Position numbers and translations under genes: made by a program. Of a stretch of DNA of 35,201 nucleotides, positions 23,671-34,857 are shown piece after piece. Location of the stretch: contig JAHIFE010000150.1 in the NCBI GenBank assembly GCA_018901125.1, forward strand, positions 1 through 35,201, read 5' to 3'. The stretch is from Pseudomonadota bacterium (GTDB taxonomy: Bacteria; Desulfobacterota; Desulfobacteria; Desulfobacterales; RPRI01). Within the stretch, counting starts at the first letter, position 1; the number at the start of each line of letters is the position of its first letter. The notes beneath the pieces were generated by a model. The model searched no databases. It saw only the letters and a list, made by a program, of their open reading frames with translations, and was not told where the DNA came from.

Positions 23671-24012
23671 TTATTCGCTCTCGGTCTGCTGATGGTCATG
23701 CTGTATTGTGTGTGCTCCTGCAACAACATAATTGCAGTCCTTTAAAGCAATAAAGGTAAAAGCATCATTTGCCATATATATAGCCTGCTCTTTGACCAAT
23801 TTGGTTTCAACTCCGTCTTTTTCAATAAGCGCTTCACCGGATAGCAGATATATTATTTCGTCATGACCTTTGGGGGCTCCCATTTCTCTTCTTTCATTAC
23901 GGGGTACTTCTCCGTAAACAAAATATACGCTATGCTTTCCGATTTCTCTGGAACCAATTATATATTCTTCCCAATCATTCTGGAAACAGTCTTTGATATT
24001 AAATATTTTCAT
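23671..24012 (-). CDS. Small cupin-domain protein
   Basis: The product has about 113 residues from ATG 24012, which has AGGAAG seven bases upstream; ATG 24030 overlaps the preceding stop (TAATG) and is an alternative. The single cupin barrel shows PKGHDEIIYLLSGEALIEKDG (motif 1) and a C-terminal GAHTIQHDHQ rich in His. Cupins bind metals and act as sugar isomerases, dioxygenases or sensors; the substrate cannot be told. Its position directly after the radical SAM maturase makes it a possible tailoring or regulatory partner of the RiPP cassette. Confidence 0.75.
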   Translation of the reverse strand: MKIFNIKDCFQNDWEEYIIGSREIGKHSVYFVYGEVPRNERREMGAPKGHDEIIYLLSGEALIEKDGVETKLVKEQAIYMANDAFTFIALKDCNYVVAGAHTIQHDHQQTESE

Positions 24013-24029: not shown

Positions 24030-24761
24030 TTATTTAGATATTCCATAAACAGCGCACATAACAGGATCGGGAGCAAAAGAATTCGAAGCGCGAAAACGGC
24101 AACCCCCAGTACATTCTGCCAGTACCGGGCAGCTTTTGCATTCAAGCCGGTCAAGCGGTATATGTCCAAGTCTAAGCCATGCATCTTTTAACCCATCTCT
24201 TGCATCGCCAAGTATATCCTGGCTGTAAAATCCGCATTTTACAGCATTTCCGTTTGGCATAACAGTTATCAGATGTCTTCCGCAGGCAAAGCCTTCGGAA
24301 GACCCGTGATAGCCGCCGCCGAATGAATAAGCCAACAGTGGTACAGCTTCTTTATATGACACCATAAGATGCCGGTTGTTTTCAAGGGAGCCTGCGGCAA
24401 CAGGAAAATCAATTCCCCATTCCAGACCTTTAGTTTGTTCTATGAATTTTTCCATCTTGTCAAATTCATCAAGGTTGCCCCTGTGAATCATTGTAGCAAA
24501 TGAAACGGGAACTCCAGCTTCCATTGCTGCTTTAATTCCTTTCATTGTTCGCTTAAAAGTTCCCTTGCCCCTAAGCATATCGTGACCTTGCTCCCATCCG
24601 TCAAGACTGAATTGTATTTCATCTACGTTCAGCCAGCCGATGTTATCGGGATTGATGAGCGTACCATTTGAAAAAAGTACTCTTCGCAAGTTCAGATCTG
24701 CGGTTTTTGCAATAAAACTATTCAGGTCTTTATACAAAAGAGGTTCACCGCCTGAAATCAT
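24030..24761 (-). CDS. Radical SAM/SPASM peptide maturase, C-terminal part (frameshifted)
   Basis: This 243-residue reading frame starts MISGGEPLLYKDL, the GGEP motif of radical SAM enzymes, and contains QFSLDGWEQGHDMLRGKGTF. It ends in a complete SPASM domain with the canonical seven-cysteine spacing: CX10GX4C, gap, CX2CX5CX3C, gap, C, which would bind auxiliary Fe-S clusters. It lacks the CX3CX2C cluster site, which is in the preceding frame (24758-25189). The two parts overlap as ATGA. Inserting one C after DIGG on the coding strand joins the frames as DIGGLKAMISGGEP, exactly the expected family sequence, so this is probably one gene with a one-base deletion or a sequencing error. A coupled split enzyme is the alternative. 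Confidence 0.85.
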   Translation of the reverse strand: MISGGEPLLYKDLNSFIAKTADLNLRRVLFSNGTLINPDNIGWLNVDEIQFSLDGWEQGHDMLRGKGTFKRTMKGIKAAMEAGVPVSFATMIHRGNLDEFDKMEKFIEQTKGLEWGIDFPVAAGSLENNRHLMVSYKEAVPLLAYSFGGGYHGSSEGFACGRHLITVMPNGNAVKCGFYSQDILGDARDGLKDAWLRLGHIPLDRLECKSCPVLAECTGGCRFRASNSFAPDPVMCAVYGISK

Positions 24762-25189
24762 GGCCTTAAGCCGCCTATATCGGAAAATTCACGAGTAATT
24801 TTAAGCGCATCACCTAAAGCCATATCGCCATGTTCTGATGAGCCGAGATAACAATGAAGGCATTTAAGATTGCATCTGTTCAGCAGTTGCAGCTCAAGAT
24901 ATCTTAGAGACGGATTTACGGCCTCATTAACAAAAATGTTCACAGGATCAGGTGAGACAAGAAGCTCAAGCAGTTCTTCTTCTATGCAGTACCGGACAAA
25001 ACCGGAATCTGAAGTAAGATCTTTTCCTTTGCTGGTGCCGTTGCATTTAGTTAAAAAGTCTTTAGCAAGATTATCAATTTCGTAAAGTTCATCCTTTGCC
25101 GCATGATATACGAAAGGATTTTCCAGAATCTTTATAGAGGCTTTTTTATGAAGCCGGAGGTAAGCCGAAGCCCAGTTCAGGTCATTCAC
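24758..25189 (-). CDS. Radical SAM/SPASM peptide maturase, N-terminal part with RRE-like region
   Basis: This 143-residue reading frame starts at GTG 25189 with GGAG seven bases upstream. Residues about 20-80 (NPFVYHAAKDELYEIDNLAKDFLTKC and FVRYCIEEELLELL) have the PqqD-like pattern of a RiPP recognition element, which binds the leader of a precursor peptide. ELQLLNRCNLKCLHCYLG then gives the radical SAM CX3CX2C motif (Cys 106, 110, 113), which holds the [4Fe-4S] cluster that cleaves S-adenosylmethionine. The frame ends FSDIGGLRP and the rest of the enzyme continues in another frame at 24761. The start overlaps the Cys-rich gene by eight bases. Confidence 0.85.
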   Translation of the reverse strand: MNDLNWASAYLRLHKKASIKILENPFVYHAAKDELYEIDNLAKDFLTKCNGTSKGKDLTSDSGFVRYCIEEELLELLVSPDPVNIFVNEAVNPSLRYLELQLLNRCNLKCLHCYLGSSEHGDMALGDALKITREFSDIGGLRP

Positions 25190-25541
25190 AAGAAAGCTCC
25201 ATATCCGATTCGTTAATCATATTATTTTCTTTTAAAAGTGCCAGCAGTATAAAGCCTCCGCAGGGTTCAGTGTTGTCAGGAGGATTTTCCGACTGGAAAT
25301 CACAGTCTTGTTCCCGAAAAGAACATCGACTGCAAACATATGTTTCCAGATTTTTTTTATGCTTTTCCCATAAAACGGGTTCTTTTTTATATCGGGAGAT
25401 CTTTGATGAATCAATACGGCCATTGCCGACAAGCATTTCCACAACCTGAGCCCCCATGCAGGACATGTCTTCTTTTTTTTCTTCTTTAAAAAACACGCAG
25501 TACGGGCGGCATATATATACTTTGAACAGATTTTTATTCAT
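25182..25541 (-). CDS. Cys-rich protein of RiPP cassette, probable Fe-S binder
   Basis: The product has 119 residues with eight cysteines: CRPYC (11, 15), SCMG (28), CSRCSFREQDCDF (70, 73, 80), PCGGF (94) and one near the end (118). The grouping CX2CX6C...CGGF suggests a metal or iron-sulfur site rather than disulfides. There is no signal peptide or membrane segment. I do not recognise a named family. It lies between the 20-residue peptide gene and the radical SAM enzyme, overlapping the latter, which argues for a role in maturing or binding the peptide. No clear Shine-Dalgarno precedes the ATG. Confidence 0.75.
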   Translation of the reverse strand: MNKNLFKVYICRPYCVFFKEEKKEDMSCMGAQVVEMLVGNGRIDSSKISRYKKEPVLWEKHKKNLETYVCSRCSFREQDCDFQSENPPDNTEPCGGFILLALLKENNMINESDMELSCE

Positions 25542-25570: not shown

Positions 25571-25606
25571 GATGGCCTGAGTATGATTTCGCAAACCCAG
25601 GCCATC
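25571..25606 (-). terminator. Imperfect terminator/attenuator hairpin after the precursor peptide gene
   Basis: The perfect 9-bp arms GATGGCCTG and CAGGCCATC enclose an 18-base loop. In the minus-strand direction the hairpin is followed by a short T-rich run (ATTTGTTTTG). It sits between the peptide stop (25631) and the Cys-rich gene start (25541). A leaky terminator here would give more peptide than enzyme mRNA, a usual arrangement in RiPP operons. Confidence 0.65.
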
Positions 25607-25630: not shown

Positions 25631-25693
25631 TCAGCAGGCATGTTTACATTTGCACAGACCTGTTGAAACCTTTTTAACTTTCTTAATTTTCAT
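25631..25693 (-). CDS. 20-residue Lys/Cys RiPP precursor peptide (CbpA-like)
   Basis: The gene encodes MKIKKVKKVSTGLCKCKHAC and ends in TGA directly after the last Cys. A full AGGAGG Shine-Dalgarno lies seven bases before the ATG, the strongest in the neighbourhood, which makes a chance reading frame unlikely. The N-terminal half is a basic leader-like segment. The C-terminal half (TGLCKCKHAC) holds three Cys and would be the modified core. The next genes on the strand encode a Cys-rich protein and an RRE-containing radical SAM/SPASM enzyme, so I infer a ribosomally made, radical-SAM-modified peptide. From memory, NCBI names a tiny-precursor/enzyme pair of this kind CbpA/CbpB; this was not checked. 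The nature of the modification is unknown. Confidence 0.75.
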   Translation of the reverse strand: MKIKKVKKVSTGLCKCKHAC

Positions 25694-25712
25694 CGTTTTA
25701 CCTCCTTTGAGT

Positions 25713-25758
25713 CCAACGCAGAGATCGGCCAAAATAGGGCGTTTTGCAATTGGCTCCT
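25713..25758. repeat. Truncated, decayed MITE fragment in precursor gene leader
   Basis: CAACGCAGAGATCGGCCAAAA followed by an altered end (GGGCGTTTTGCAATTGGCTCC) matches the right 46 bases of the full element at 25843-25992 with a few differences. Only one end is present. It lies between the inferred promoter (25810-25837) and the ribosome binding site of the 20-residue peptide, so it would be transcribed as part of that leader. Confidence 0.8.
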
Positions 25759-25809
25759 TTGTTAAGAAGTTAACTTATGAGCTACACAATACAAAATCAG
25801 CTTATTCTT

Positions 25810-25842: not shown

Positions 25843-25992
25843 TATAGAGCCAGTTTCAAAACGTTTCAGTTTGGTCAAGGTCAAGGCGGGTTAAAATTTT
25901 AACCGCAGGAATACATGGGGTATTTCGAGGATTAAAAATTTCACCCAACGCAGAGATCGGCCAAAATGGGACGTTTTGAAACTGGCTCTATA
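25843..25992. mobile_element. MITE-like element, complete copy
   Basis: This non-coding element of about 142-150 bp is bounded by perfect 18-bp terminal inverted repeats GAGCCAGTTTCAAAACGT (25847-25864 and complement 25971-25988). The repeats extend outward through CATTATA/TATAATG (25840-25846, 25989-25995). A 16-bp palindrome GGTTAAAATTTTAACC lies inside. It has no transposase, so it would be mobilised in trans. An inverted copy starts at 35105 and a fragment lies at 25713-25758. Confidence 0.85.
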
Positions 25993-26411
25993 ATGAACCG
26001 CAATAGCTATCTATTTTTATTTTATAATAATCCTTGAACCCTTCGAATATTTATCTATTGATCTAGGATGTAAAGGACATTCCCGGCTTAAGCGAATAAA
26101 TTTTGCTTTGCGTATTGCAGAAGAATTCAAAAAACAACTTCTCCTTAAAATACCGGCATATCAAGCACATTCTAGATGTTCTTATTCTTTTTCTTTCAGA
26201 GTTTATAGTACAGACTTATCAAAGGTTTTCTGGTTGGCTGATATCCTGTGGTTATGGAAAGATATCTGTAGAAATAATTTTGTCTGGTAAGTTTTGCTTA
26301 CAATCATGAATATAAAAAAACTTAAAGAGGATACACTCTAATTCTTATTTGCCTCGGTAGTTTCAACGCAGTTCCGATAGGTTAACTCTCCAAAATAACC
26401 AGATAAAACGT

Positions 26412-26561: not shown

Positions 26562-28145
26562 ATGAGTAAGGCCAACAATGGGGCTAACCTGGGATTTGAG
26601 CGTGAGCTATGGCAGGCTGCAGACGCGCTACGTTCCAATATGGATGCGGCTGAGTATAAGCACGTTGTGCTCGGACTGATCTTCCTGAAGTATATTTCCG
26701 ATGCATTCGAGGAACAGCATGCCAATCTGGTAGCCGAACGTTCCCTTGGAGCCGACCCGGAAGACCCCGACGAGTATAGGGCTGTAAACATATTCTGGGT
26801 GCCCAAAGAGGCGCGCTGGCCAAATCTCAAGTCCAATGCAAAACAGCCAACCATCGGCAAGTTTATCGACGATGCAATGATAGCTATCGAGCGTGACAAT
26901 CAGTCGCTAAAGGGCGTGCTTCCCAAGGATTATGCTCACCCCCGTCTTGATAAACAGCGGCTTGGGCAACTTATCGACCTGATCGGCAATATCGGGTTAG
27001 GAGACAAGGCCAACCGCACCAAGGACATTCTTGGCCGGGTTTATGAGTATTTCCTCTCTCAGTTTGCCAGCGCAGAAGGCAAGAAGGGCGGTCAGTTCTA
27101 TACGCCGCGCTGCATTGTGCGTGTTTTGGTCGAGATGCTGGCGCCTTACCAGGGTAGAGTCTATGATCCGTGTTGCGGTTCCGGAGGCATGTTCGTCCAG
27201 TCGGTTGAGTTCGTGAGGGCTCATGCCAGCGGTAATGGGAATGGTGGAAAAACAAAGGCCGATGTCAGTATCTTCGGACAGGAGTCAAACCACACCACCT
27301 GGCGATTAGCAAAGATGAATCTTGCTATCCGTCAGATTGAGAATAACCTTGGAAAGGAACATGCCGACAGCTTTCATCACGACCTTCACCCCGACCTCAA
27401 GGCCGACTATGTTATTGCCAATCCGCCATTCAATGATTCAGACTGGCGCGGGGAGCTGCTCAAGGAGGACAAGCGATGGAAATTCGGTATACCACCTGCC
27501 TCTAATGCCAACTTTGCCTGGGTCCAGCACTTTATCCATCACCTTGCTCCGAAAGGGCTGGCAGGTTTTGTCCTGGCCAATGGTTCAATGTCATCCAACC
27601 AGTCCGGCGAGGGTGAAATCCGCAAGAACATTATTGAGGCCGACATGGTGGATTGTATGGTGGCAATGCCCGGCCAGCTCTTCTATTCCACTCAGATTCC
27701 AGTCTGCCTGTGGTTTATCACCCGTGATAAAAAGAACGGCCGTTTCCGCGATCGGCGCGGCTACACGCTCTTTATTGATGCCCGCAAGCTGGGGACGATG
27801 ATTGACCGCGTTCACCGCGAGCTGACCGAAGAAGATATCCACAAAATCGCCGGCGTTTACCATTCCTGGCGTGGTGATATTGGGGCGGTTCGCGAACCGG
27901 CTCTACCGCAATATGAAGATATCGCCGGTTTTTGCAAGAGTGCCACAATTGATGATATCCGCCATCATAATCATATCCTCACGCCTGGGCGTTATGTTGG
28001 CGCGGCAGAAGTCGAAGACGACGGTGAGCCGTTTGATGAGAAGATGACCAGACTAACAATCGAACTGAAAAAACAGATGGCGAAAGAAGCCGAACTCGAC
28101 AAACTTATTTGGGCCAACCTGGAGGACATCGGGTATGGCGGATAA
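26562..28145 (+). CDS. hsdM: Type I restriction-modification DNA methyltransferase subunit HsdM
   Basis: The product has 527 residues. The helical N-terminal HsdM domain (about 10-140, [36 protein letters not shown]) is followed by the N6-adenine methyltransferase domain. That domain has the SAM-binding [12 protein letters not shown] (about 200-211) and the catalytic NPPF at about 287-290. With HsdS it methylates adenine in the target sequence to protect host DNA. Its base composition is visibly more GC-rich than the flagellar genes. The end overlaps the next gene by 11 bases. Confidence 0.96.
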
Positions 28146-29292
28146 GAAAATGAAGACGGATGACTCACGCCGAACACTTGGGCAAAAGCGACCAGGGGCA
28201 TCCTTTCCTGTAGCCCCTCCCAAGTCCGAATTGCCCGGAGACTATGCTGGTCTTCTTGCTGATCTGAAGAATCGTATTGCTGCGGAACGCCTGCGGATGA
28301 CAATGACGGCAAACGCTGCAATGATAATGCTTTACTGGGATATCGGACAGTCTATTTTAGAGCGGCAGCGAAACGAAGGCTGGGGTGCCAAGGTGATTGA
28401 CCGTCTTTCCGCCGATTTGCGTGATGCCTTTCCGGATATGCATGGTTTGTCTCCGCGGAATCTCAAGTACATGCGAAAATTCGCTGAAGCCTGGCCGGAC
28501 CGGAAAATAGTGCAGCGGGCCGCTGCACAAATTCCATGGAGGAGCAATCAGGCCCTGCTCGATAAACTCGACAACCAGGAAACCCGCTTGTGGTATGCCG
28601 AAAAAACCATCGAAAACGGCTGGAGCCGGGATGTACTTTCTCTGCAAATCGAATCCTGCCTCCATGAGCGCCAGGGCAAAACCGTCAATAATTTCTCGGT
28701 AACACTTCCGCCCGCCGACTCCGACATGGCCGCCCAGATTTTCAAGGACCCGTATCTCTTCGATTTCATCGGAACCGCCGACCCGCGCCGTGAACGCGAG
28801 ATCGAACAAACCCTGGTCGATCATATTCAGAAATTCCTCCTGGAACTCGGGGCCGGTTTCGCATTTGTCGGCCGCCAAGTACCGCTTGAGGTCGGCGATC
28901 AGGATTTTTTCATCGACCTGCTGTTTTATCATTTCAAACTGCGTTGTTTTGTGGTTGTGGAACTGAAGGCCGTGGCTTTCGATCCTTCATTTATCGGCAA
29001 AGTGAACCTATATCTCTCTGCAGTGGACGACCTGCTGCGTCATCCTGATGACAAACCGACCATCGGGCTTTTGCTTTGTAAGGGTAAGAACAGGCTGGTA
29101 GCCGAATACGCCCTGCGTGACCTTCGCAAACCGATTGGCGTTGCCGACTGGGAAACGCATATTGTCGCATCCTTGCCGGAAGAGCTGAGGGGTAGCCTGC
29201 CGACTATCGAGGAGATCGAGGCTGAACTGGGTGAATTAGTCAAGCCGAAGCCGAAAAAAGCTACCAGCAAAAAGAAAGGCGATAGGAAATGA
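28135..29292 (+). CDS. YhcG/DUF1016-type PD-(D/E)XK nuclease
   Basis: The product has 385 residues. The N-terminal DUF1016 helical region has [32 protein letters not shown] and [21 protein letters not shown]-terminal nuclease fold follows with FIDLLFYH (Asp about 261) and VVELKA (Glu about 276, Lys about 278), the PD-(D/E)XK catalytic set. The tail is Lys-rich. Such proteins are known beside type I restriction systems, but their role there is not settled. It overlaps hsdM and, by ATGA, hsdS, so it is an integral member of the operon. Confidence 0.88.
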
Positions 29293-30674
29293 CCGCCAGA
29301 ATGGGTGAGCATACCAAACATACGGTTTACGGTTTAATGTCTGCTCGATTTGAAAGTTCACCACTTGTTGATCTTTGCATCGCGGACGGTGGTGTTCAGA
29401 CTGGCCCTTTTGGTAGCCAACTTCATGCGAGTGATTACGTTGACTATGGCACTCCGATCATCACTGTCGAACATTTGGGTGATAATCGTATTATACATAA
29501 CAACCTTCCGCGTGTCACCGATGAGGACAAGGATCGACTGTCTCGGTATACACTGGTCACCGGTGATATCGTCTTTAGCCGGGTTGGATCAGTTGATAGG
29601 CGGGCAGTTGTCCATCCTGAGGAAGACGGCTGGCTATTTTCCGGTCGATGTCTTCGCATTCGCCCGGATAAAAATAAGATCGATCCTGGCTTCTTGTCAT
29701 GGTTTTTTGGTTTTCCGGGATTTCAGGAACATATTCGACAGATAGCTGTGGGCGCGACGATGCCATCACTCAATACGAAGATTCTTGGTGATGTGCCAAT
29801 TTACTATCCGTCATCCCCCACGGAGCAACAGGCTATCGCATGCATTCTTGGTGCATTGGACGACAAGATCGAGTTGAACCGGCAGATGAACCGGACACAG
29901 GAGGAGACGGCGCGGGCGATCTTTAAGAGCTGGTTCGTGGATTTCGACCCCGTCCGTGCCAAAACTGATGGTCAGCAGCCCCCTGGCCTCAAGCCTGAAA
30001 TCGCCGCCCTTTTCCCGGACACTTTTGAAGACTCCGAACTGGGTGAGATTCCTGCCGGTTGGAGAGTGCGGCCCATCGGTGATGTTGTGCAGGTGCTAGG
30101 TGGTGGAACACCTAGCACCAAAGAACCTGATTACTGGGAAGGAGGGTTCCACCCATTCTGTACTCCCAAGGACATGTCTTCGCTAACGGAACCAGTGCTG
30201 CTGGGAACGGAACGCCATCTAACCGATAAAGGGCTCACCAAGGTCAGTTCGGGGTGCTTGCCAATAGGAACGGTTCTATTGTCGTCGCGCGCACCCATAG
30301 GGTATTTGGCCATTGCTGAAACACCCGTGTCCATAAATCAGGGGATTATTGCGATGGTCTGTGACGGTGGGCTGCCGAACCTATACGTTTTGTACTGGAC
30401 CAGAGCCAACATGGAACGAGTACTTGCTAACGCTAACGGCAGCACGTTCTTGGAGATCAGTAAGCAGAACTTTCGTCCGATTTCTGCAGTCATTCCACCA
30501 CCGACTATCCTTCGGCGATTTATGCAGATCGTCGATCCGCAGCATCAACGGGTCGTCTTATCGCTTCGACAGATTCAGCATATCGCCGCCCTTCGCGACA
30601 CTTTGTTGCCTAAGTTGTTGTCCGGTGAACTCGTGGTAGCAGAAGCTGAACGAATTGTGGGGAGGGTGATCTGA
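29289..30674 (+). CDS. hsdS: Type I restriction-modification specificity subunit HsdS
   Basis: The product has 461 residues with two target recognition domains: TRD1 about 15-175, and TRD2 about 247-415 starting SELGEIPAGWRVRPIGDVVQVLGGGTPST. They are separated by the central conserved helix ILGALDDKIELNRQMNRTQEETARAIFKSWFVDFDPV. A second conserved helix (IQHIAALRDTLLPKLLSGEL) is at the C-terminus. It fixes the two-part DNA target of the complex; the target cannot be read from the sequence. The ATG overlaps the stop of the nuclease gene. No inverted repeats or second hsdS for phase variation are seen nearby. Confidence 0.95.
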   Translation: MTARMGEHTKHTVYGLMSARFESSPLVDLCIADGGVQTGPFGSQLHASDYVDYGTPIITVEHLGDNRIIHNNLPRVTDEDKDRLSRYTLVTGDIVFSRVGSVDRRAVVHPEEDGWLFSGRCLRIRPDKNKIDPGFLSWFFGFPGFQEHIRQIAVGATMPSLNTKILGDVPIYYPSSPTEQQAIACILGALDDKIELNRQMNRTQEETARAIFKSWFVDFDPVRAKTDGQQPPGLKPEIAALFPDTFEDSELGEIPAGWRVRPIGDVVQVLGGGTPSTKEPDYWEGGFHPFCTPKDMSSLTEPVLLGTERHLTDKGLTKVSSGCLPIGTVLLSSRAPIGYLAIAETPVSINQGIIAMVCDGGLPNLYVLYWTRANMERVLANANGSTFLEISKQNFRPISAVIPPPTILRRFMQIVDPQHQRVVLSLRQIQHIAALRDTLLPKLLSGELVVAEAERIVGRVI

Positions 30675-30676
30675 TC

Positions 30677-31714
30677 ATGGATTTTCTTCATCCCGTCTTT
30701 GAGGATCAGCTTGAGTTACAACCAGATGCTAAGGGCAACGTCGTCATCGGCGACACGATCTTTTCCCCCGTTGCCATTCTTCGTGCTGATCCCTCCGCAT
30801 ACGAGGATGAATTCTCCAAGTGGATGAGCGACCGGTGGATTCCAGAGCAGAATGAGTTATTGGAGGAAATCCTCAGCATTCACGCAAATCGGAAGCGGTT
30901 CGTTGATTTGTGTGCCACGTTAAAGAATGGACACCTAATCCCTCTTGTTGGCAGCGGAATGTCGATTCCCACGGGCCTTCCGACATGGTTGGGGTTTCTG
31001 CGCATGGTCCGGCAGCATTCATCCATGCCGGAAATAGAACTGGAAGACTTACTATTACATTGTGCATACGAAGAGGCTGCCGAGCGCCTTGCCGCAGCCA
31101 TGCCTGGAAGGCTCTTCGATGAGCGAATAGAACATGATCTACGGATCGATGATACCAACGCAATATGTGGAGCTGTGGTCTTTTTGCCTGAACTATTCGA
31201 CAAGCTGGTCCTGACAACGAACCTTGATGACCTGCTGGAGCGAATGTATGAACTACGCAATCGTAGGTTTAGCCATATCTTGGCCGGAAAAAGCATTAGC
31301 GAATATCGAAAGGTCAAGGCAAACTCCGAACGCGTTCTCTTGAAGTTCCATGGTGACTGCCGATCACGTGATGGACGAGTACTCGGAAAAACCGAATACG
31401 AGCAGGCATACTGCAACGGATCTCCCATCAAGGAAGAACTAACTACTGTCTATAGAAACCATAGCATCTTATGCCTCGGTTGCAGCCTGGAGCCAGACCG
31501 CACCGTAGAGCTACTGGCCGAGGTTGCAAAGATTGATCCCGGTATGCCCAAGCACTACGCGTTCTTGCAGCACCCAAATAATGCAGACATGCTACGACAG
31601 AGGGAGCACTTCCTGACCGACCGCGATGTATTTCCGATCTGGTATCGCGACTACCATGATGAATCAATTAAAGCATTATTTGTCGGCATGATGCAACACT
31701 TGGGGAGGCTATGA
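30677..31714 (+). CDS. SIR2-like domain protein embedded in the type I operon
   Basis: The product has 345 residues. An N-terminal extension of about 70 residues (low similarity to anything I know) precedes a SIR2-like fold with [18 protein letters not shown] (about 87-104), [11 protein letters not shown] (Asn about 182, Asp about 184), LKFHGD (His about 225) and [12 protein letters not shown] (about 265-276). The GSG, TTN-D and HG positions are those expected for NAD binding and cleavage in defence SIR2 proteins such as ThsA or DSR2, so an NAD-depleting abortive-infection effector is plausible. It starts two bases after hsdS and overlaps hsdR by four bases, so it is co-expressed with the restriction system. 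Activity is inferred, not shown. Confidence 0.82.
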
Positions 31715-34700
31715 TGCCTAACTTCACCGAATCTGTTGTCGAGCAAGCTACCTTGGCCTGGTTGGAGAGCATGGGCTACCTCGTCTTGTCGGGGTTGGAA
31801 ATTGCTCCAGGCGAACCGGCCGCCGAGCGAGAAGATTACGAACAGGTCTGTCTTCCTCGACGGTTGAAACAAGCGCTCCAGCGGCTGAACCCGCATTTGC
31901 CGCCTGATGTAGTTGAGGAGGCATTCCACAAGCTGAAGCGGCCGTACTCGCCTTCGCTGGTGGTGAACAACCACATCATCCACAAACACCTGGTTGATGG
32001 AGTGCCGGTCGAGTATCAGCGTGCTGATGGATCTATCGGCGGCGATCTTGTTCGCGTGTTTGACTATGATGAGCCGGAAAACAATGAATTCCTTGTAGTT
32101 AACCAGTTTACGGTGGTTGAAAATCAGCATGAACGACGGCCTGATGTTGTGCTTTTTGTCAATGGCTTACCATTGGCGGTTATAGAACTGAAGAATGCTA
32201 CCACTGAAAATGCTTCCATATGGTCGGCTTTTAATCAGCTTCAGACCTACAAAATGCAAATTCCGTCGCTTTTCTCTTTTAATGAAGCGCTGGTGATCTC
32301 TGATGGCGTACAAGCTCGAATTGGCACTCTGACGGCCGACCGTGAGTGGTTCATGCCGTGGAGGACCATCGAAGGCGAGGATTTGGCTGACACGCGGTTG
32401 CCTCAGCTTCAAGTTATGCTTGAGGGTGTGTTTGAAAAGCGGCGGTTTCTGGATCTGATAAGGTATTTCATCGTTTTTGAGGATGTAGGCGGTGGTGTGC
32501 TGGCTAAAAAGATGGCCGGTTACCATCAGTATCACGCAGTAAATGTGGCTCTGGCTGAAACAATTCGAGCTTGTGTGCCGTCGACAAAACAAGAACAAAT
32601 CGGAGAGGAATTAGGAAGGTTTTATGCCAAGGGGCAGCGTGAGGCCAAACCGGGTGACCGGCGTGTGGGGGTTATCTGGCATACCCAGGGATCGGGAAAA
32701 AGCCTGACTATGGCTTTTTATGCAGGCCGGGTAGTAATGCATCCGGTTATGAAAAACCCAACGCTTGTAATAATAACCGACCGCAACGATCTGGACGACC
32801 AACTTTATGGCACTTTTGCCCGCTGCAATGAACTGTTGCGCCAGAAGCCGGTTCAAGCCCAGAGCCGGGCTCATTTGCGTGATCTGCTGCGCACAGGTTC
32901 AGGCGGTGTTGTATTTACAACGGTTCACAAGTTTTTCCCTGTCGAAGGCGAGGACCAACATCCCCTGCTTTCCGATAGACGTAATATTGTGGTTATCGCC
33001 GATGAAGCTCATCGAAGCCAGTATGATTTTATTGATGGATTTGCCAGGCACATGCGCGAGGCGCTGCCAATGGCATCTTTCATAGGGTTTACCGGTACCC
33101 CCATAGAATTGATTGATAAGAACACCAGGGCTGTATTTGGTGATTACATCAGCATATATGACATTGAAAGAGCGGTAAAGGATGGCGCAACAGTTCCAAT
33201 ATACTACGAGAGCCGATTGGCAAAACTGGAACTGGATGAGAAAGAACGACCTCACCTGGATGAAGATTTTGAGGAAGTTACCGAAGGCGAGGAGGTTGAT
33301 CACAAAGAACGGCTCAAAACCAGATGGGCACAGCTTGAGGCTTTGGTCGGCACAGAAAAACGTTTGGCATTGATCGCCAGTGATCTGGTAGACCATTTTG
33401 AGCGTCGCCTGGAAGCAATTGACGGCAAGGCCATGGTGGTTTGCATGAGCCGGAGGATATGTGTTGATCTATATAACGCCATAGTATCAATCCGGCCTGA
33501 TTGGCATTATGAGGACGATGACAAGGGCTTTATCAAGATCGTGATGACCGGTTCAGCCGCCGATCCCATTGGTTGGCAGAGTCATATACGCAACAAACAA
33601 CGAAGAGAACAACTGGCCAAGAGGTTTAAAGATCCTAAAGATGGATTTAAGATGGTGATCGTACGCGATATGTGGTTGACAGGTTTCGATGTGCCGTGCC
33701 TACATACCATGTATGCGGATAAACCCATGCGCAGTCATGGCTTGATGCAGGCAATTGCCAGAGTTAACCGCGTATTTAAGGATAAACCCGGAGGCCTGGT
33801 GGTTGACTATTTGGGTTTGGCTCATGAACTTAGGGCTGCATTGGCAAACTATACGGAAAGTGGGGGCACGGGCCGGACAGCCATTAAACAGGAAGAAGCT
33901 GTGGCAGTAATGCTGGAAAAATATGAAATTTGCAGTGGAATATTTCATGGTTTTGATCGAACTGTCTGGAAAACCGGAAAGCCACAGGAACGGCTTTCTA
34001 TTCTGCCGTCCGCACAAGAACACGTGCTTTCAATACATGATGGCAAAAGCCGCCTGAATAAGGCTGTTAGTGATCTGTCCAAAGCATTTGCCTTGGCTGT
34101 GCCTCACACGAAAGCAATGGAAATACGCGATGATGTTGCTTTTTTCCAGGCTGTTAAAACGGTTCTGGCCAAAGGCGCTTATACTTCAGGTCACAGTCCG
34201 GAAGAGCTGGATCATGCAATTCGGCAGATAGTGTCAAAGGCCGTCTCATCTGAGGAAGTAATCGATATATTTGCCGCAGCCGGTCTTGATAAACCGGATA
34301 TATCGATTTTATCTGATGAATTTCTTGCGGAAGTACGTGGAATGCCGCACCATAACCTTGCAGTGGAGATTTTACGCAAGCTCTTGGATAATGAAATCAA
34401 AACGCGTAAACGCAAAAATATTGTTCAAGCACGCTCTTTTTCAGAAATGCTGGAAAATTCCATTCGGCGATATCAGAACCGCGCAATCGAAACAGCACAA
34501 GTAATTGAAGAGTTGATCTCTTTGGCTAAAGATTTGAGAGAGGCGGATCGCAGGGGAGAAGCTTTAGGCCTCACAGAAGATGAAGTTTCATTCTATGATG
34601 CTCTGGAAGTTAATGACAGCGCTGTGAAAGTACTGGGTGATAAAACACTTAGAATGATTGCCCAGGAATTGGTGCGGGCGGTACGCAGCAATCTTAAGAC

Positions 34701-34857
34701 AGACTGGACGGTAAGAGAAAACGTCCGGGCTGAAATGCGTGTAATGATAAAGCGAATCCTCAGACGATATGGTTACCCGCCTGACAAACAGGCCAGAGCT
34801 ACCGAGCTTGTTTTGGAGCAGGCTGAGGTGCTTTGTCAGGATTGGGTTGCATTATAG
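31711..34857 (+). CDS. hsdR: Type I restriction enzyme motor/nuclease subunit HsdR
   Basis: The product has 1048 residues, normal for HsdR. The N-terminal nuclease domain has RRPDVVLF (Asp about 145) and VIELK (Glu about 159, Lys about 161). The SF2 translocase follows with Walker A QGSGKS (about 326-331), DEAH (about 431-434), GFTGTP and a second RecA-like domain with [21 protein letters not shown] and QAIARVNR. A helical C-terminal region binds the methylase core. It pumps unmodified DNA and cuts it far from the recognition site. ATG 31711 overlaps the SIR2 gene stop; ATG 31714 has better spacing from GGGGAGG and may be the true start. Confidence 0.96.

Follow-up and report, generated by a model that had tools for sequence, protein, structure and literature searches.

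The window, i.e. the whole stretch of 35,201 nt analysed here, carries on its minus strand a small operon headed by a gene of only 20 codons, MKIKKVKKVSTGLCKCKHAC (Table 1). The stop codon of this frame lies immediately 3' of the codon for the final Cys (25693-25631, minus strand), and its ATG is separated by the 7-nt spacer TAAAACG from a complete Shine-Dalgarno (SD) sequence, AGGAGG, so that the frame and its well-placed ribosome binding site are present as originally predicted. The peptide gene is followed by a terminator-like hairpin, the gene for a protein with seven Cys residues (here called P2), the gene for a maturase with RRE, radical SAM and SPASM domains and a cupin gene, after which a pyrimidine-dimer glycosylase-like gene comes next. 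The original prediction had placed the peptide at the head of an operon with an RRE-bearing radical SAM/SPASM enzyme; this order stands for the peptide, but the radical SAM gene is only the third gene of the operon and is split in the window. The split and the repeat insertion described below had both escaped the original prediction. No model of NCBIfam or Pfam claims the peptide or P2, hence the family would be overlooked by annotation pipelines based on such models. The peptide is also not described in the open-licence literature that was searched.

Table 1. Features of the peptide operon in the window, and loci with the linked A-N-GAA hairpin.
Feature	Position	Strand	Remarks
Small cupin-fold protein, final gene of the operon	23671..24012	-	weak Cupin_2 match; relatives in many loci
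Maturase: N-terminal RRE, radical SAM core (CNLKCLHC), C-terminal SPASM	24030..25189	-	1-base deletion near 24763
P2, accessory protein of 119 aa, seven invariant Cys and PCGG	25182..25541	-	without Pfam or NCBIfam family
Terminator/attenuator-like hairpin, GATGGCCTGGGT...ACTCAGGCCATC, with T-rich tract	25571..25606	-	between peptide and P2 genes; z = -3.8
Precursor peptide gene, MKIKKVKKVSTGLCKCKHAC, 20 codons	25631..25693	-	conserved beside the maturase
Shine-Dalgarno sequence, AGGAGG	25701..25706	-	7 nt from the peptide ATG
Remnant of a ~143-bp repeat	25709..25760	-	91% identity over 25713-25756; absent in L021
A-N-GAA hairpin	L106-L118, L023-L046, L058, L064		upstream of the peptide; downstream in f17 loci

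The copy of the operon in the window

The radical SAM gene of the window consists of two frames (24758-25189 and 24030-24761). When aligned with its counterpart in the nearest relative, the gene lacks exactly one base near 24763, where the window reads GGC-CATG and the relative GGCTTATG; in this closest relative (L021/G007) the maturase gene is intact. Compared to L021, approximately 52 nt have also been inserted in the window, which now separate the ancestral upstream arm from the SD sequence. The repeat remnant found there is bordered on both sides by AAAGGAG (25760-25754 and 25708-25702), which looks like a target-site duplication of 7 bp. The corresponding element is an imperfect, MITE-like inverted repeat of ~143 bp, present in the window's genome in at least 40 copies at 95-98% identity (374 first-look candidates, of which 40 were scored); copies often lie at contig ends, and one is located at 25846-25995 in the window. 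Furthermore, residue 19 of the window peptide is Ala, and Ser stands at this position in 62 of the 64 distinct relatives.

Given the frameshift, the repeat insertion and the S19A exchange, the window's copy may be inactive. The operon could even be a decaying remnant which was switched off by the frameshift and the insertion, a reading that deserves consideration but that we do not favour. It would fit that the deletion hits the sole maturase copy, as a second one was not found in the window's genome, and that both the repeat remnant in the 5' region and S19A affect the peptide gene. On the other hand, the 386-codon maturase gene contains no other lesion and has kept a synonymous-biased substitution pattern, while peptide, P2 and cupin are intact and the SD sequence is preserved. 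Moreover, one isolated indel is weak evidence for a broken maturase in a draft assembly, in which it may simply be an error. Apart from the peptide operon, the plus strand of the window contains a type I restriction-modification operon (26562-34857; HsdM, HsdS and HsdR), in which a PDC-S02-type gene (28135-29292) separates HsdM from HsdS and a ThsA-like gene (30677-31714) separates HsdS from HsdR.

Conservation of the peptide and its co-occurrence with the maturase

Conservation of the peptide beside orthologous maturases had been set beforehand as the check on the prediction. It was evaluated with a loose pattern (a start, 12 residues, C-x-C-x3-C and a stop), which fixes only the start, the length and the Cys spacing, and the 20-codon peptide was detected in 63 of the 76 distinct maturase loci with enough flanking sequence, which refutes non-conservation. 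The 64 distinct peptide sequences retrieved by this pattern have the constant Cys14, Cys16 and Cys20, the last being the C-terminal residue, and all share I3, K/R5, K/R8 and K15; no aromatic residue is conserved among them. A second set of 61 distinct peptide genes comes from a regular expression which itself fixes CKC and the C-terminal Cys, and statements on invariance therefore rest on the looser pattern. In this second set, each gene has an SD-like site (61/61), and mean pS is 0.83 versus a mean pN of 0.25, values which show that the peptide evolves under purifying selection.

The co-occurrence was analysed by searching the peptide pattern and the maturase in the same 395 genomes of the Desulfobacterota phylum. 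The maturase is encoded in 39 of these sampled genomes. A DNA (IUPAC) pattern of the peptide gene matched 30 genomes, every one among those 39, and none of the 356 genomes without maturase; the reversed control pattern gave no match in any of the 395 genomes. The maturase was furthermore found in 53 of 148 genomes of the phylum on the Nitrospirota side. Loci with peptide and maturase are present in many Desulfobacterota, in Nitrospirota, in one Nitrospinota MAG (L041) and in a MAG labelled Spirochaetes (L031). Viral matches were restricted to distant radical SAM relatives (at most 33% identity), and no plasmid covered 80% of the query.

Within the same genus, all five genomes with an orthologous maturase have the peptide upstream of it (MKIKKVKKVSTGLCKCKHSC, MKIKKVKKVPTGLCKCKRSC, once with a TTG start, and MSIKKVRKIATGLCKCKRSC; a tandem pair in G001). 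In Nitrospirota and in the family f17, the peptide gene is located downstream of the maturase. Some genomes contain extra peptide copies, in tandem or distal on other contigs, as it is expected of a precursor. The 13 exceptions among the maturase loci include one in which the peptide lies 3.5 kb upstream behind an insertion (L022), a truncated one (L065) and two from genomes with a distal peptide copy (L079, L080); in about nine loci, a peptide could not be recognised in the vicinity (L078, L043-L045, L156-L158, L165, L166). A stand-alone peptide, VNIRKIEKKMKGACKCKVLC, remote from any maturase, was observed around position 4152 of L130 (reverse-complement orientation of the locus), where two small c-type-cytochrome-like genes follow.

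The frame MKIKKVKKVSTGLCKCKHAC is hence confirmed as a real gene and is no chance frame. Conservation, co-occurrence and operon structure together strongly support the predicted role as RiPP precursor for the adjoining maturase, whose substrate the peptide almost certainly is.

The maturase and its partner proteins

The maturase family is represented by an alignment of 31 sequences with a mean column identity of 57%, in which the CNxxCxHC motif as well as C351, C354, C360, C364 and C379 are invariant. The structure model (pLDDT 92) resembles over its whole length SkfB (Z 26.1, rmsd 4.9, 329 residues, model 15-374) and SuiB (Z 25.7, rmsd 3.8, 355 residues, model 10-384), followed by anSMEcpe, CteB and others; the epimerase EpeE is also among the structural neighbours (Z 18.9). 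SkfB is the best PDB match by sequence as well (E 4e-23). It must be mentioned that a structural match of this model does not discriminate between thioether formation, epimerisation and other reactions. All members are recognised by the sequence profile of the radical SAM core, and the match to SPASM is weak; the SPASM model TIGR04085 scores 33.3 bits on the maturase versus a cut-off of 27. The RRE is barely visible by sequence, with the PqqD profile matching only one of the 31 members (E 0.07), and becomes apparent from the structure model, which aligns from residue 10 or 15 to the RRE-bearing SuiB and SkfB.

All NCBIfam equivalog models leave the maturase far below their cut-offs. Membership in the SynChlorMet (ScmE/ScmF) family was considered and rejected, as ScmE is the top-scoring model but reaches only 92.6 bits versus a cut-off of 400; the same applies to PQQ (PqqE, 59 bits versus 381) and mycofactocin (MftC, 58 bits versus 265). 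The suggestion that the pair belongs to the CbpA/CbpB class had to be abandoned as well. The CbpA model TIGR04165 (cut-off 60 bits) has no match in the contig, including the peptide, and its maximum in the whole genome, 18.1 bits on another contig, is at chance level; the CbpB model TIGR04163 (cut-off 375 bits) is absent from the 25 top-scoring models for the maturase, a list that extends down to ~48 bits. Both systems combine a small Cys peptide with a SPASM enzyme, but the CbpA model has 50 positions compared to the 20 residues of our peptide.

Among the characterised systems, the sactipeptide maturases such as SkfB of the sporulation killing factor share the whole-length arrangement of RRE, radical SAM core and Fe-S C-terminal domain and act on a Cys-containing substrate. 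The present system differs in that the maturase remains far below the NCBIfam cut-off for SkfB, the 20-residue precursor has no long leader, transporter, peptidase and immunity genes are missing, and P2 is present as extra protein or domain. The ranthipeptide systems CteB/SCIFF and PapB also combine an RRE-SPASM maturase with Cys-rich precursors, in which thioethers to non-alpha carbons are formed (PMC8326336), and the same gene combination is found here. However, the SCIFF precursors comprise ~45 residues with six Cys in contrast to 20 residues with three Cys, and the models of these systems remain below cut-off on the window proteins. PqqA/PqqE and mycofactocin (MftA/MftC) provide the precedent for a peptide-derived cofactor (PMC3023750). 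They resemble our case in having a very short precursor, almost constant in length, encoded next to a SPASM enzyme, in the patchy occurrence across phyla and in the lack of export genes; unlike them, the peptide has no Glu/Tyr or Val/Tyr core, and partners of the PqqB/C or MftE type were not seen here.

P2 contains seven invariant Cys (C11, C15, C28, C70, C73, C80, C94) and the invariant E24. Several loci encode P2 as an N-terminal fusion to the maturase (P2-RRE-rSAM-SPASM), which links it functionally to the maturase reaction. The structure model of P2 is confident (pLDDT 83), and its fold has no meaningful match in the PDB (Foldseek E at least 3.6; best match VIA with Z 2.4), although such a lack of matches is no proof of anything. 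Judged from the seven Cys only, P2 is probably an Fe-S electron donor or an auxiliary-cluster domain. Many Desulfobacterales-type loci encode a second radical SAM/SPASM protein (R2) before the cupin, which could add a second modification. The R2 gene is missing from the window operon and present in G007; it follows the maturase in L021, L022, L025, L026, L029, L030, L033-L037, L040, L046 and L094, and a further R2 gene occurs in L161 (7500-8483). In one family, f17, an ATP-grasp-like gene takes the place of R2 after the maturase/peptide pair (L067, L071, L073, L079, L083, L085, L095), which suggests a variant product. Genes for rubrerythrin, Fe/Mn superoxide dismutase, peroxiredoxin or Fur are found near several loci; they hint at redox or metal biology, and part of this pattern represents shared ancestry.

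Putative product, alternative readings and RNA hairpins

The find is best read as a new, widespread family of radical SAM RiPP precursors, belonging to a known kind of system; its accessory domain is new, as is the linked hairpin. The family is common and its precursor unusually uniform. In our opinion, the gene quite probably encodes the precursor of a radical-SAM-modified RiPP with an RRE-bound leader, a Cys-modified CKCxxSC end and an intracellular product. The N-terminal half (M-K-I-K-K-V-x-K), with alternating basic and aliphatic residues and the invariant Ile3, would serve as recognition strand, and judged from related families it very probably docks on the RRE. The C-terminal half (G-L-C-K-C-K-x-S-C) would represent the core, from which the maturase, with P2 as helper or fused domain, could abstract hydrogen in order to link one or more Cys sulfurs to carbon like sactisynthases and ranthisynthases do.

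The absence of a conserved aromatic residue makes Tyr- or Trp-based crosslinks as in PQQ, streptide or cyclophanes unlikely, so that Cys, Lys and Ser remain as sites for the chemistry. It strengthens, together with the three absolutely conserved Cys, the earlier idea that the Cys thiols are modified. Hence, Cys-based thioethers are the most likely chemistry, to which we assign roughly an even chance; taken alone, the invariance of Cys14, Cys16 and Cys20 is only compatible with such a crosslink. The surroundings of the locus contain no conserved gene for an exporter or transporter, for immunity or for a peptidase; therefore, the product is most likely retained in the cell, where it might act, rather tentatively, as a small redox or metal-binding factor. 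An intracellular product would represent a new factor derived from a peptide, in anaerobes with a central role in the sulfur cycle. With its fixed 20-residue substrate and three Cys, the system is about as simple as radical SAM RiPP systems get and easy to test.

A RiPP with another type of modification is an appreciable possibility. Epimerisation, a Lys- or Ser-directed C-C or C-N linkage or a conversion of the C-terminal Cys would agree with the nearly invariant Ser19-Cys20 end, with the invariant Lys15 between two Cys and with EpeE among the structural neighbours, but the closest whole-length structures are the sactisynthase SkfB and SuiB, and Cys are the most constrained residues of the peptide. 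It is clearly improbable that the peptide acts unmodified in metal binding or redox reactions while the radical SAM enzyme uses a substrate encoded elsewhere: the CxCxxxC motif and the Lys-rich composition suit thiolate metal binding, and the redox and metal genes near several loci would match, but this assumption disagrees with the leader-like N-terminal half of the peptide and with the fact that it strictly co-occurs with a SPASM enzyme bearing an RRE.

A stable hairpin 3' of the peptide stop codon (z ≤ -2) was found in 49 of 61 relatives, often together with a T-rich tract, which agrees with a precursor that is produced in larger amounts than its enzymes. The sequence of a short Cys/Lys-rich frame, terminator-like hairpin and enzyme genes also resembles a transcription-attenuation leader, in which ribosomes stalling at Cys and Lys codons control the hairpin and the genes behind it, but this is highly improbable given the conservation of features irrelevant to stalling (Ile3, Lys5, Ser19 and the exact length of 20), the position of the peptide gene behind that of the maturase in Nitrospirota and f17, and the existence of tandem copies and of distal ones on other contigs.

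Returning to the RiPP precursor, its gene is accompanied by another hairpin further upstream. A stem of at least 4 bp with the loop A-N-GAA is present in 31 of 62 peptide genes, compared to a mean of 0.16 and a maximum of 2 in shuffles, and no other loop pattern of equal degeneracy exceeded 3. The stems vary by lineage (CTTTC/GAAAG, GCCCC/GGGGC, GTCCC/GGGAC, GTTGC/GCAAC and others); pairing is kept in 98% of cells and covariation is 1.10 versus 0.31 in shuffled sequences, in a set chosen for having the stem, so that the unbiased test is the loop-pattern count versus shuffles. A palindrome upstream of the peptide, AAGTTAACTT, shared by the window and L021, was rejected as conserved signal, as it is not kept beyond these two. 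No Rfam family matched the upstream hairpins, and the A-N-GAA structure is a new linked RNA hairpin. We regard as rather unlikely the most far-reaching assumption, that Desulfobacterota and Nitrospirota possess an intracellular cofactor for redox or metal functions which derives from a peptide and would rank with PQQ or mycofactocin, with a universal 20-residue precursor, an RRE-SPASM enzyme with a previously unnamed 7-Cys partner domain and the A-N-GAA hairpin governing precursor synthesis in many species. The hairpin itself represents a separate testable question on regulation. In many lineages it abuts or overlaps the SD sequence. Of 2024 such hairpins counted away from the peptide, only 22 show the A-N-GAA loop, and several of these sit just after the peptide in f17.
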